A stretch of DNA of 64,000 bases, taken from the NCBI RefSeq assembly GCF_003060825.1, contig NZ_CP028922.1, positions 4,371,001 to 4,435,000 on the forward strand. Reading direction: 5' to 3'. The notes beneath the pieces were generated by a model. That model was not told where the DNA came from and did not search any database. It saw nothing but the letters and a program-made list of their open reading frames with translations. The translations under genes were made by a program, and so were the position numbers. This DNA comes from Paenibacillus sp. CAA11. GTDB lineage: Bacteria; Bacillota; Bacilli; Paenibacillales; Paenibacillaceae. Shown here in pieces: positions 43,705 to 48,213 of the stretch. Position 1 is the first letter of the stretch; every line of letters begins with the position of its first letter.

Positions 43705-44604
43705 TTAAATGTTGCCGTGAGCCAGCGGCAGAACCTCTCTCGCAAACCGAATCCATTCCCGCGCTGCAAAAGAAAGATAGCGATCCTCACGCCAGATCAT
43801 GCCGAGCTTCCAAGGAATGACGGGGTCGACCAAGGGAATGATGCTCACCCGCTCCGGATCGACTTCACGGCAGATTGTCTCCGGCAAGAGGGCTACCCCC
43901 AGCCCGGCGCCTACCATTTCACTGATAAGGTCCCACTGGGAGCTCTCATATATCACCCTGGGCTGAAATCCTACCTTAGCACATTCGGTAATAATCCGGT
44001 CATGCAGCATGAAGTCCTCCCGGAATAAAACAAATGATTCCTGTACCAGCTCCGCAAGGCCTACCTCCCTTTGCTTAGCCAGCCAGTGGGATGGGTGTAC
44101 CAGAAGCTTCAGCCTCTCTTCCACGAAAGGAAAACAGCCAAACCCCTCCCCAAGGGTTGGAAGCACGACTACTCCGACATCCAAAGTGCCGGCAGCAACA
44201 TCCACCTCCACCTTCTTGGCTCCGTCTTCAAACAGCTGAATGGTGATATCCGGATACCGCTGATGGAATTGGCCGATGACCTTAGGAAAAAAACTGGAAC
44301 CTACCATTGGCGGAAGACCGATGCGAATATGTCCCCGCTTCAAGTTCCGCAGATCATCAAGCTCTGCCGACAGGTTCTGAAAGGAGGTCAGAATCGTATG
44401 AGCCTGCTCCACAATGATTTTGCCGGCATCCGTCAGCTCAATCCGCTTCCCCAGCCGGTCAAAGAGCTGTACCCCAAGCTCTTCCTCCATAAGCCTGATC
44501 GTCTTGCTGATGGTCGGCTGGGTGATGAACAGCGATTCTGCCGCCTTGGTGAAGCTCTTGAGACGGGCTACTTCCACTAAATATTGCAATTGACGAATAT
44601 CCAA
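43705..44604 (-). CDS. cidR: LysR-family regulator (CidR-like)
   Basis: About 299 residues: LysR winged helix (DIRQLQYLVEVARLKSFTKAAESLFITQPTISKTIRLMEEELGVQLFDR) and an effector-binding domain (IRIGLPPMVGSSFFPKVIGQF). Divergent from the CidA/CidB genes, as in Bacillus ywbI-ywbH-ywbG, where CidR activates them in response to acetate or overflow metabolism. The TTG at 44604 (giving MDIRQLQ, GAGGTG ten bases upstream) is more likely than ATG at 44622, which lacks a ribosome site. An inverted repeat in the shared promoter region is a candidate binding site. Confidence 0.88.
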   Translation of the reverse strand: MDIRQLQYLVEVARLKSFTKAAESLFITQPTISKTIRLMEEELGVQLFDRLGKRIELTDAGKIIVEQAHTILTSFQNLSAELDDLRNLKRGHIRIGLPPMVGSSFFPKVIGQFHQRYPDITIQLFEDGAKKVEVDVAAGTLDVGVVVLPTLGEGFGCFPFVEERLKLLVHPSHWLAKQREVGLAELVQESFVLFREDFMLHDRIITECAKVGFQPRVIYESSQWDLISEMVGAGLGVALLPETICREVDPERVSIIPLVDPVIPWKLGMIWREDRYLSFAAREWIRFAREVLPLAHGNI

Positions 44605-44632
44605 TTGAATGAAGCACCTCATTCTTGATGAT

Positions 44633-44749: not shown

Positions 44750-45130
44750 ATGAGTAAGCTGAAAACCCTGCTGATCGGTATCGTGCAGGTGGCTGTCTTG
44801 TTCTTGCTTTCCATGGGCATGAATAAGCTTGCGGAGCTGCTCCATTTGAGAATCCCCGGAAGTATTCTGGGCATCATCCTCGTCTTTATTCTGCTTCAGA
44901 CCAAGGTAATTAAGCTGGAATGGGTGGAAATCGGCGCCAGCTGGCTGCTTGCCGAGCTGCTGCTGTTCTTTGTTCCTTCTGCCGTCGGGGTGATGAAATA
45001 TATTCCGCTGCTGGAGAATGAGGGGCTGCAAATTTTGCTGGTCGTTCTATTCAGTACGCTAACTGTGATGCTTAGCTCCGGGATGGTTGCTTCCCGTATT
45101 GCCAAACGAAAGGAGAACAAAACCTCATGA
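44750..45130 (+). CDS. cidA: CidA/LrgA holin-like protein
   Basis: 126 residues with four hydrophobic helices; LLHLRIPGSILGIILVFILLQTKVIKLEWVEIGASWLLAELLLFFVPSAVGVM is the LrgA/CidA signature. It is a membrane holin-like protein thought to modulate murein hydrolase activity, pyruvate uptake and programmed cell death. The ATG at 44750 follows AAAGGAGC. Its stop overlaps the CidB start (ATGA). Matches B. subtilis YwbH. Confidence 0.92.
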   Translation: MSKLKTLLIGIVQVAVLFLLSMGMNKLAELLHLRIPGSILGIILVFILLQTKVIKLEWVEIGASWLLAELLLFFVPSAVGVMKYIPLLENEGLQILLVVLFSTLTVMLSSGMVASRIAKRKENKTS

Positions 45131-45810
45131 TTATCGGGTTGATTTGCCTGCTATTTACACTGGCGGTCTACTGGACGTCCAAGAGGGTCTACCGGGCTAA
45201 GCCGCGGATCTATCTGTCGCCGCTGCTGGTTACTCCGCTGGTCTTGATTCTGTGCCTGCTGGCAGCAAAAATTCCGTTCGAATCCTATAACAAGGGCGGC
45301 AAACTGCTAACCGATCTGCTTCAGCCAGCGACCATTGCTTTTGCCATTCCGCTTTATAAGTATTTTAACGTACTAAAAAAGCACGCTGTCGTCATCTTTG
45401 TCAGTGTGCTGTCCGGCTCCATCGTAGCCATGATCACTTCGGCCTTCCTCGGCAAATGGATGCACATGGACACCTCTTTGGTTAACAGCCTGGTACCGCG
45501 TTCAGTAACCACGCCTATCGCCATGAATATTTCCCAAGTCATTGGCGGTGTTCCAAATATGACTGCCGTATTCGTCATTATTACAGGCCTCTTAGGAAGC
45601 CTGATAGGCCCGTCTGTGCTGAAGCTGTTCCGCATAGAGAATGAAATCGCAAGAGGCGTACTGCTGGGCACAAGTGCTCACGGGATGGGCACGTCCAAAG
45701 CGTTCGAGTTCAGTTCGCTGTCAGGAACCATCTCAAGCATCTCTATGATATTGTCCGCCTTGATCACTTTAGGAGTGGCTCCTTTATTTATCTCATTGCT
45801 TCTAGGGTGA
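45127..45810 (+). CDS. cidB: CidB/LrgB-family membrane protein
   Basis: 227 residues, about seven hydrophobic helices. PRSVTTPIAMNISQVIGGVPNMTAVFVIITG and GVLLGTSAHGMGTSKAFEFSSLSG are signature LrgB/CidB blocks. It partners CidA in membrane complexes, matching B. subtilis YwbG. Coupled to cidA by ATGA overlap and followed by a modest hairpin. Confidence 0.92.
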   Translation: MIIGLICLLFTLAVYWTSKRVYRAKPRIYLSPLLVTPLVLILCLLAAKIPFESYNKGGKLLTDLLQPATIAFAIPLYKYFNVLKKHAVVIFVSVLSGSIVAMITSAFLGKWMHMDTSLVNSLVPRSVTTPIAMNISQVIGGVPNMTAVFVIITGLLGSLIGPSVLKLFRIENEIARGVLLGTSAHGMGTSKAFEFSSLSGTISSISMILSALITLGVAPLFISLLLG

Positions 45811-45852: not shown

Positions 45853-45890
45853 AAGCTTGGCTTCGCTCAATGGGCGGAGCTCTTTTTATT
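45853..45890 (+). terminator. weak terminator after cidB
   Basis: AGCTT/GAGCT with an inner GCTT/GGGC stem, followed by CTTTTTATTT. It overlaps the 3' end of the converging Spo0E-like gene. Confidence 0.5.
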
Positions 45891-46043
45891 TAACCTATAG
45901 TATTGATTTAGTAATTGATCTAATATTCTTGATTGTTCCAGAACTTTCGGATGGGAAAGCGCGCCAAACTGACGCTGAACCTGATATAGATCGTCTCTCG
46001 CTTTTTCGACACGAAGTAAAGTTACACCTTGATCGATCTGCAT
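45867..46043 (-). CDS. Spo0E-like aspartyl-phosphate phosphatase
   Basis: 58 residues. The two-helix Spo0E pattern is clear: VEKARDDLYQVQRQFG, then HPKVLEQSRILDQLLNQYYRL, with SRILD matching the SQELD signature. These proteins dephosphorylate Spo0A~P in the cytoplasm and delay sporulation. The start is the ATG at 46043; an in-frame ATG at 46064 has no ribosome site. The ribosome site GGAGG lies in the loop of a perfect hairpin (see 46041-46063). It follows the terminator of the receptor/peptide operon on the same strand. Confidence 0.82.
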   Translation of the reverse strand: MQIDQGVTLLRVEKARDDLYQVQRQFGALSHPKVLEQSRILDQLLNQYYRLNKKSSAH

Positions 46044-46063
46044 GACACAACCTCCTTGTGTCA
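46041..46063 (-). promoter_or_regulatory. hairpin presenting the ribosome site of the Spo0E-like gene
   Basis: On the minus strand TGACACAA-GGAGG-TTGTGTCA is a perfect 8-bp stem whose 5-base loop is the Shine-Dalgarno; the A of the AUG is the last base of the 3' arm, and G-U pairs could extend it. Translation could be controlled by structure, temperature or a binding factor. Confidence 0.7.
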
Positions 46064-46112
46064 CATATTAGTATAAAAAGACAAAAATTGGGGTGCCCAT
46101 ATTTTGACCCAT

Positions 46113-46149
46113 TTAAAAAAGGTATCCCCGAAATTATCGGGGATACCTT
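46113..46149 (-). terminator. strong intrinsic terminator after the receptor/peptide operon
   Basis: AAGGTATCCCCGA pairs perfectly with TCGGGGATACCTT across ATAAT; on the minus strand TTTTTT follows. It lies 45 bases past the peptide stop codon, closing the operon before the Spo0E-like gene. Confidence 0.93.
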
Positions 46150-46193: not shown

Positions 46194-46313
46194 TTAACCT
46201 TCACCATGATTGTAAACAGTAGTTATTGCTGTTGTTCCTGTAGTGACCAGCAAGGCCGGCCCAACAAGGAAGCATGTAGCAGCAAGGAGCATAATAATTT
46301 TTTTCTTCATCAT
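46194..46313 (-). CDS. secreted signalling pro-peptide (Phr/AloP-like)
   Basis: 39 codons: a basic start MMKKKIIM, a hydrophobic core LLAATCFLVGPALLV, and a polar tail TTGTTAITTVYNHGEG. This is the layout of an exported Phr-type pro-peptide whose C-terminal 5-7 residues (for example YNHGEG) would be cut out and re-imported through Opp. The ATG at 46313 overlaps the receptor stop (ATGA) and follows GGGAG; an ATG one codon later is also possible. Position, length and signal sequence all match the RRNPP rule that the peptide gene directly follows its receptor. Mature form and processing are inferred. Confidence 0.8.
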   Translation of the reverse strand: MMKKKIIMLLAATCFLVGPALLVTTGTTAITTVYNHGEG

Positions 46314-47671
46314 TCTTCTCCCCTTAAAAGTAATTTTTGATATCTATCTTGAGTATCTGGATGTGCAAAAGTTCGATGTTTTTCATATAGCTTCACACAA
46401 TCTAACATATGTTTCTCATTCCTAATTATTACAGAACTTTGCAGCGAGTTCAACAAAAATTTGAAGCCGTTATCATATCTTTCTTTTGACAAATGATAAT
46501 AAGCCAGTTCATACATTAAATGCGCTTGTCGATCCATGAATAGCTTTCGCGAATACCCACTTTTTATAGAAGTATCCATACCATACTCCGAGGGTACCTC
46601 AAGCTTCTGAAGAACCTTATCTACATTAAATTGATGTTTATTAGCTGCTCTCAAAATATATAAAAGCCCAATAGTCAATTCCTCTTTGTTCTCATTAATA
46701 TAGGCAGTGTAACTCTCTATTACTGATAAATCACCGCTCAAAAGTTTTGTTATGCATATATTAGCCTCTGACCATTCTCTGAATTTATCTTTCCAGTAGT
46801 CTATGTCTTCTCCCTTTTCCTTAACCCAATCAAGATTAGCATAAGCATGTTTGTATGAAAGCGCCTGTTCGTAATCCCCCTGCTCATCACAAACATTACC
46901 TTTCAGCAAATTACTGTAAGCGATGTAGAAAAACAATGGCCTTGCTAATTTTTTATCGGGGTCTGATAAGATAGGTTTGTTTTGATCCTTTAAATTGTAC
47001 AAAATTTGAGCTGTATAGCCCATCTTATGGGCCAATTCATTAACCTTATTCCATCGCTGTAGTGAGCGGTAAGTATTAATAAGCTCTTTGAGCGCATCCA
47101 ATTGGTCTACTAGATCCAAGCGCTCTACAAATGGCTCAAATCGGATAGCCGCTTGGTAATTCTCCTCCTGATCATCCCCAAGCCGAAGTGTAAACAACCG
47201 GTACTGACAAAGGGCCAGGCGCTCGGAATGCTGAAATTTCTCCCCCTCCGCCACTGTCTCATACAGCAGCAGAGCAGCAGCCCGGTAACCCTGGGAGAAC
47301 AGCTCCTCGGCCGTATCAAACAGCATGGGCGAGTACATCAATTTATCCATGACATGCTGAACCACGCGCTGTATCGCATCAAGCTTATGGAGCTCAGCAC
47401 AGCGAATGATTAGCGGCCCCACCCGCCTCCAATCTGGAGAACGGTCAATAATGTAATTCTCTATGTATAAATCATAATAGTAGCCGTCAGGAAGCCCCAT
47501 CCCTTTGGTGATCCGGTCAAGCTGTTGAACAGCGATCGGCCGGTGGCCAAGAATCAGGTTATTGAGTGTTCTGGGATGAATCTCCGAGGAAGCCGCAAAC
47601 TGTGCCGAGGTCATTCCCTCTTGCCTGATATACGCTTCCAGTTCTGAAATAATGGTAGGCGCATGCTTCAT
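46310..47671 (-). CDS. HTH-TPR peptide receptor, RRNPP type (AloR-like)
   Basis: About 453 residues. An N-terminal helix-turn-helix spans residues 8-65 (MTSAQFAASSEIHPRTLNNLILGHRPIAVQQLDRITKG) and the rest is a run of TPR-like helical pairs (AELFSQGYRAAALLLYETVAEGEK region; YIAYSNLLKGNVCDEQGDYEQALSYKHAYANLDW). No membrane segment. This is the domain order of RRNPP receptors (PlcR, NprR, AimR) and, by size and host, of the AloR family reported in Paenibacillus polymyxa. I choose the ATG at 47671, seven bases after GGAAGG; an ATG at 47689 is possible. It should bind DNA and change activity on binding its cognate peptide. Confidence 0.85.
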   Translation of the reverse strand: MKHAPTIISELEAYIRQEGMTSAQFAASSEIHPRTLNNLILGHRPIAVQQLDRITKGMGLPDGYYYDLYIENYIIDRSPDWRRVGPLIIRCAELHKLDAIQRVVQHVMDKLMYSPMLFDTAEELFSQGYRAAALLLYETVAEGEKFQHSERLALCQYRLFTLRLGDDQEENYQAAIRFEPFVERLDLVDQLDALKELINTYRSLQRWNKVNELAHKMGYTAQILYNLKDQNKPILSDPDKKLARPLFFYIAYSNLLKGNVCDEQGDYEQALSYKHAYANLDWVKEKGEDIDYWKDKFREWSEANICITKLLSGDLSVIESYTAYINENKEELTIGLLYILRAANKHQFNVDKVLQKLEVPSEYGMDTSIKSGYSRKLFMDRQAHLMYELAYYHLSKERYDNGFKFLLNSLQSSVIIRNEKHMLDCVKLYEKHRTFAHPDTQDRYQKLLLRGEE

Positions 47672-47725
47672 TTTATAGCCTTCCCCCATACTAATTTACC
47701 TAAAAATAGAAGTTTATACCTGTTT

Positions 47726-47754
47726 ATTATCGTTCTTTTAACAATCTGGGTCAA
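47726..47754 (-). promoter_or_regulatory. sigma-A promoter of the receptor/peptide operon
   Basis: On the minus strand TTGACC (47754-47749), a 17-base spacer and GATAAT (47731-47726) give a strong vegetative promoter about 35-55 bases before the receptor start. Confidence 0.75.
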
Positions 47755-47805: not shown

Positions 47806-48213
47806 CTACAAACCGTATACGGTTCCGCTCACCTGAATTGGCCCTACAACTCTTGCATTGGTTCCCGCACTAAGATTCTCTACGGAAATCGTATAATCAT
47901 GCACTCCCGTCGGGGCGTTCGTGTCGATTGCTTGGAAAGAAACCAAATAGAACCCTTCGAAGGAAGCCTCAATGCCCTGGAGACCGTAAGAGATCTCCGT
48001 TGTATCACGAAATACACGGAACAGAACGCGACTGATTCCCGAAGTTCCCTGTAATCCTACTGTGGCCTTTATCTCCACCCTATTATTACTGCGGGGAACC
48101 GTCAACCTAATTTGTGAAATTCCCTGTCCAGCCGGTGTAATAGGAACCGGAATAGACGCTCCATTGGTGACTGGAGTAGGTACATTTGTTGCATAGTCCA
48201 GCAGTTCAACCAC
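47806..48213 (-). CDS. small all-beta protein, possible exosporium/spore-surface protein
   Basis: 135 residues, no signal peptide or membrane helix. The sequence is Thr/Val/Ser-rich with alternating beta strands (GISQIRLTVPRSNNRVEIKATVG; GTSGISRVLFRVFRD; FEGFYLVSFQAID; VHDYTISVENLS; ARVVGPIQVSGTVY), suggesting a jelly-roll. It resembles small Bacillales proteins annotated as exosporium protein C. The GTG at 48213 follows AAAGGAGTG. Monocistronic. The spore-surface assignment is tentative. Confidence 0.55.
   Translation of the reverse strand: MVELLDYATNVPTPVTNGASIPVPITPAGQGISQIRLTVPRSNNRVEIKATVGLQGTSGISRVLFRVFRDTTEISYGLQGIEASFEGFYLVSFQAIDTNAPTGVHDYTISVENLSAGTNARVVGPIQVSGTVYGL

Follow-up and report, generated by a model that had tools for sequence, protein, structure and literature searches.

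Organisation of the locus

The window analysed here, a stretch of 64,000 nucleotides from Paenibacillus sp. CAA11 (NZ_CP028922.1), contains on its minus strand a receptor gene, aloR, followed by a short propeptide gene, aloP, and the two overlap in such a way that the TGA of aloR and the ATG of aloP share the sequence ATGA, with a GGGGAG ahead of aloP (Table 1). The start of aloR was placed at the ATG at 47671, and not at the alternative in-frame ATG located 18 bases upstream at 47689, because of the ribosome site GGGGAAGG and the aligned starts of the homologues. The promoter-like sequence that precedes aloR was the best of seven such sites, the total number of which equals the expectation from shuffled sequences; TTGACC or TCGACC is similarly placed ahead of many homologous aloR genes. 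The terminator that follows aloP folds far better than its shuffled versions. On the basis of these two elements, the original prediction described the pair as one closed operon. Both elements are present, and what had been missed is a spo0E-like gene that lies on the same strand just past the terminator.

The aloR–aloP pair is flanked by lrgAB on one side and a sugar ABC transporter on the other. No phage genes were seen adjoining it, and a search of plasmid DNA gave no close match to the locus. The lrgA–lrgB pair is convergent with the spo0E-like gene and divergent from the gene of a LysR-type regulator, and the 135-aa protein encoded upstream of aloR has neither a Pfam or NCBIfam match nor a second copy in the genome.

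Table 1. Features of the aloR–aloP locus and its surroundings, with their positions in the window
Feature	Position	Strand	Evidence
aloR, receptor of 453 aa (coordinates include the stop codon)	46310..47671	-	ORF; weak HTH_3; AlphaFold/Foldseek; AloR homologues
aloP, propeptide of 39 codons	46194..46313	-	Sequence; sister tails; 100/119 homologues
Predicted mature signal YNHGEG (last six aloP codons)	46197..46214	-	C-terminal conservation; length inferred from AloP13 SHGRGG
Promoter-like TTGACC-N17-GATAAT before aloR	47726..47754	-	Consensus scan
Intrinsic terminator after aloP	46119..46149	-	13-pair stem and T tract; RNA fold z = -4.95
spo0E-like gene, 59 aa from ATG with AAGGAGG site (65 aa from GTG at 46064)	45867..46046	-	Pfam PF09388, E = 3.6e-11
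TTTTTGNCA..TA.AAT-like block upstream of the spo0E-like gene	46058..46095	-	
135-aa protein upstream of aloR	47806..48213	-	
lrgA–lrgB	44750..45810	+	
LysR-type regulator	43705..44622	-	

The receptor and its relatives

The product of aloR comprises an N-terminal helix-turn-helix (HTH) at approximately residues 7–57 and a C-terminal region resembling a TPR helical superhelix. When the receptor was searched alone with Pfam-type profiles, HTH_3 was matched with E = 3.9e-4, below the curated cut-off, and the TPR models remained sub-threshold; among its homologues, HTH_3 was matched by 15 of 16 and TPR Pfam models by several. In an AlphaFold model computed from 43 sequences (mean pLDDT 88.9, pTM 0.83), HTH helices occupy residues 7–57 and further helices run throughout residues 66–448. 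Comparison of this model with the PDB using Foldseek returned mostly TPR superhelices, including those of RapH–Spo0F, of Rap with the competence peptide (CSF) and of PlcR with PapR and DNA. The E-values of the TPR matches were modest (1e-3 to 2e-2), as is expected for TPR folds. The modelled receptor is an HTH joined to a TPR-like superhelix, in line with the 453-residue receptor first described from the ORF, and the model excludes a protein lacking the TPR fold.

Among the RRNPP families that had been proposed for comparison, homology was found to AloR; a sequence match to the solved structures of RRNPP receptors was not, which agrees with the published account, in which AloR receptors do not strongly resemble the remaining RRNPP families (PMC7425212). 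The closest relative of the receptor, from P. jilunlii, is 62% identical to it. In P. terrae NRRL B-30644, where 40 AloR receptors have been counted (Voichek et al. 2020, PMC7425212), the best four show 49–51% identity. A receptor encoded on a plasmid of the P. polymyxa type strain ATCC 842 is 41% identical over 99% of the length, and a 43-aa signal-peptide ORF overlaps its end. The criterion proposed for AloR–AloP systems is an identity of 30% or more across 80% of AloR13, IMG 2547357582 (PMC10075063), and membership was judged here with the receptors of these two published genomes standing in for AloR13 itself. The SHGRGG-stop pattern, sought in 198 genomes of the family as a way of finding AloR13, gave 30 matches, none of them beside a receptor. 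In a tree of 114 receptors, the protein falls in a group of eight (SH-aLRT 99) nested among AloR-family receptors. All named homologues come from Paenibacillus, save one record titled Bacillus sp. FJAT-27264, and two receptor homologues occur in Brevibacillus phages, a distribution that fits a family essentially confined to Paenibacillaceae. In the Brevibacillus phage SecTim467 (L125), a spo0E-like gene lies immediately ahead of an AloR-like receptor with 28% identity, so that a comparable layout is carried by a phage.

Six places of the AloR family were counted in the genome, of which five are intact, including this aloR, and one is a remnant with stops; the five further places were absent from the original prediction. 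The remnant (G000:C1:456014-456898, L006) carries two internal stops, yet the peptide ORF behind it looks intact and ends in NHGANY. A second receptor in tandem was found at L045 and L046.

The peptide gene and its predicted signal

The aloP product is MMKKKIIMLLAATCFLVGPALLVTTGTTAITTVYNHGEG. The basic start, the hydrophobic core and the polar C-terminus initially ascribed to a 39-codon ORF overlapping the receptor stop codon were all seen on the minus strand. With 39 aa and an N-terminal hydrophobic helix, the product has the size (32–50 aa) and shape of Alo propeptides; its secretion is predicted from these sequence features, and none of the protein family libraries recognises it. Comparison of the small ORFs beside homologous receptors revealed a peptide-like ORF, defined by a length of 28–62 codons, a basic N-terminus and a hydrophobic core, near the receptor end in 100 of 119 fetched loci. 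In control windows of equal size, such ORFs were found in four of the 119 loci on the opposite strand, in two inside the receptor and in two further downstream. These counts include close copies and hence are not independent, and the contrast is nevertheless large: receptor and peptide are paired far above chance.

The tails of the peptides encoded next to the sister receptors are likewise conserved: FNHGEG in P. jilunlii, FNHGFG in P. tengchongensis, YYHGEG in P. tepidiphilus and FNHGDG in P. tritici, where a second, tandem peptide ends in YTHGEG. They share the pattern [FY]-x-H-G-x-G, into which the YNHGEG of aloP fits. Since the mature form of AloP13 is its C-terminal hexapeptide SHGRGG (PMC7425212), YNHGEG is the best guess for the signal encoded by aloP and, judging from the sequence, probably is that signal; that the signal lies within the last 5–7 residues, as first proposed, we consider quite likely. 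Other AloP-like peptides of the same genome end in QIGGF, TVGGM, SHGWGTGED, HGAGGELN and NHGANY, and these differing tails imply that the signals are distinct. Two tandem AloP peptides with differing tails behind one receptor were found at L047 and L076.

Homologues without a peptide ORF, which had been named as evidence that would speak against the pair, do occur. No recognisable ORF of this kind was found in four close relatives, those of P. phytohabitans, Paenibacillus sp. S150, P. silagei and P. piscarius (L048, L049, L050 and L058). In all four, the receptor lacks about 25 residues at its C-terminal end, a segment whose coding sequence overlaps aloP in other loci, and the P. silagei receptor also has an internal stop. 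They constitute a minority of orphans of the sort previously reported for AloR receptors, including in P. polymyxa (PMC7425212), and the majority pattern holds. Taken together, full-length AloR homology, the conserved peptide gene, the fit of the tail and the HTH–TPR model support the assignment of an RRNPP-type receptor–propeptide pair and, among the families originally named, specifically of an AloR–AloP (Alo) system, about which we have hardly any doubt.

The spo0E-like gene and the search for an operator

The spo0E-like gene beside aloP is one of three in the genome, which also contains spo0A. An ORF of this type is located within 800 bp downstream of aloR in 27 examined loci. Its linkage to aloR requires 13 changes on the receptor tree, so the spo0E neighbour has been gained or lost repeatedly, and the seven sister receptors on the tree are without a nearby spo0E gene. 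To our knowledge, Alo13 is the single Alo system tested so far. In published genomes, spo0E lies directly downstream of 6 alo systems of P. polymyxa and 12 of P. terrae, one of which has been shown to control it: AloR13 acts as an activator of spo0E, and its peptide turns the gene off, SHGRGG at 10 nM to 5 uM lowering expression from the spo0E promoter (PMC7425212). Because the layout at this locus is that of alo13–spo0E, we infer from the Alo13 data that AloR would activate the spo0E-like gene.

Comparison of the upstream regions of aloR and of the spo0E-like gene yielded no shared operator above shuffled sequences. The longest word common to both, TTGACCCA (inverted), was reached by 20 of 60 shuffles, which is not significant. 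Of the further linked loci, L101 alone gave a suggestive result with an inverted word of this type, TTGACCGCTG, which was reached by 2 of 60 shuffles. A conserved block resembling TTTTTGNCA..TA.AAT, in which TA.AAT is -10-like and has no clear -35, is present upstream of spo0E-like genes, for example here and at L127, L137 and L140; it was dropped as a candidate AloR site since spo0E genes unlinked to aloR carry it too. The TTTTTGNCA-like element may be a Spo0A box. No convincing AloR operator was found at the locus.

Proposed mechanism and alternative explanations

What can be read directly from the DNA is that the gene of an AloR-family HTH–TPR receptor is translationally coupled to a propeptide gene and that a spo0E-like gene follows downstream. 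By analogy with AloR13–AloP13, AloP would leave the cell through Sec, be processed to about six C-terminal residues, YNHGEG, and re-enter by way of the oligopeptide permease. The imported peptide would then bind the TPR groove of AloR, and the peptide-bound receptor would cease to activate the spo0E-like gene. In dense populations, a lower level of the Spo0E phosphatase would leave more Spo0A~P, and entry into sporulation would become easier. Taken as a whole, an AloR–AloP quorum-sensing system is the reading that we hold with high confidence, with YNHGEG as its predicted signal and the spo0E-like gene as its candidate output.

The alternatives concern the output and the peptide. A true Alo pair could act on its own operon or on distant genes, for example other alo loci, and the spo0E-like gene could be a neighbour by chance or answer to other factors. 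The sister receptors without this neighbour fit such an arrangement, as do the occurrence of the TTTTTGNCA block at linked and unlinked spo0E genes alike, which makes it not specific to AloR, and the published observation that AloP13 also altered the expression of other alo genes (PMC7425212). Against it stands the recurrence of spo0E downstream of alo systems, both in the loci examined here and in P. polymyxa and P. terrae, with its control shown in one case. We regard a target other than spo0E as a serious possibility that falls somewhat short of an even prospect, and regulation of the spo0E-like gene by AloR with the sign known from AloR13 as a question for which, by analogy, the balance is even. 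Because the sister receptors lack the neighbour, the link at this locus may be recent or incidental; the terminator between aloP and the spo0E-like gene, and the operator search that gave nothing above shuffled sequences, also count against the proposed output. One could go further and suppose that the private Alo channel of one Paenibacillus lineage, that of YNHGEG, acquired its spo0E-like gene independently of the sister receptors, which would amount to a rewiring of outputs within the clade; we think this rather unlikely.

As for the peptide, the small ORF might be degenerate, or its product might be secreted or membrane-bound without serving as the ligand, with the receptor sensing another peptide as an orphan or through cross-talk. 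Such a situation would be in keeping with the orphan receptors among the closest relatives and in P. polymyxa (PMC7425212) and with the other AloP-like peptides of the genome, but aloP is an intact frame preceded by a ribosome site, and its tail matches those beside the closest relatives of the receptor, which renders such a situation quite improbable. That the ORF is a chance frame next to an ordinary HTH–TPR regulator without a peptide is hardly credible: its shortness and its absence from protein libraries would allow it, and the frequency of such ORFs beside homologous receptors, set against their rarity in the control windows, together with the conserved tails, argues strongly the other way.

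Relation to known systems and implications

The system most similar to this locus is the spo0E-linked Alo13, with which it shares the receptor architecture, the receptor-then-peptide order and the spo0E-like gene directly downstream; as in AloR–AloP systems in general, the short propeptide begins with a hydrophobic helix, its C-terminus is of the HGxG kind and several paralogues are found in one genome (PMC7425212). Unlike Alo13, it has a peptide of its own, YNHGEG instead of SHGRGG, and the overlap between aloR and aloP is 4 nt, compared with about 38 nt in most homologues; identity with the compared receptors of the published Alo genomes is only 41–51%. The PlcR–PapR, NprR–NprX and Rap–Phr systems of Bacillus share the same general mechanism and the TPR superhelix, as reflected in the presence of RapH, Rap and PlcR among the structural matches, but no sequence match to their solved structures was found, and Rap has no HTH whereas the aloR product has one. 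The arbitrium system AimR–AimP of Bacillus phages likewise consists of an HTH–TPR receptor, a downstream peptide gene and an adjacent target gene; in contrast, the receptor described here has no sequence match to the solved AimR structures, and its gene neighbours are lrgAB and the sugar ABC transporter rather than phage genes.

The pair is a further member of an already published family; both its signal and its target are predictions, and since systems of this kind have been described both with RRNPP_Detector (PMC10075063) and in the 2020 study (PMC7425212), the surprise is small. It adds to the Alo family one defined predicted signal, YNHGEG, and a testable target, one of the three spo0E-like genes of the genome. 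The sister receptors without spo0E provide a natural comparison for studying changes of output in systems of this type and, should the rewiring be true, the timing of sporulation would have come to depend on a signal that has another role in the sister species.
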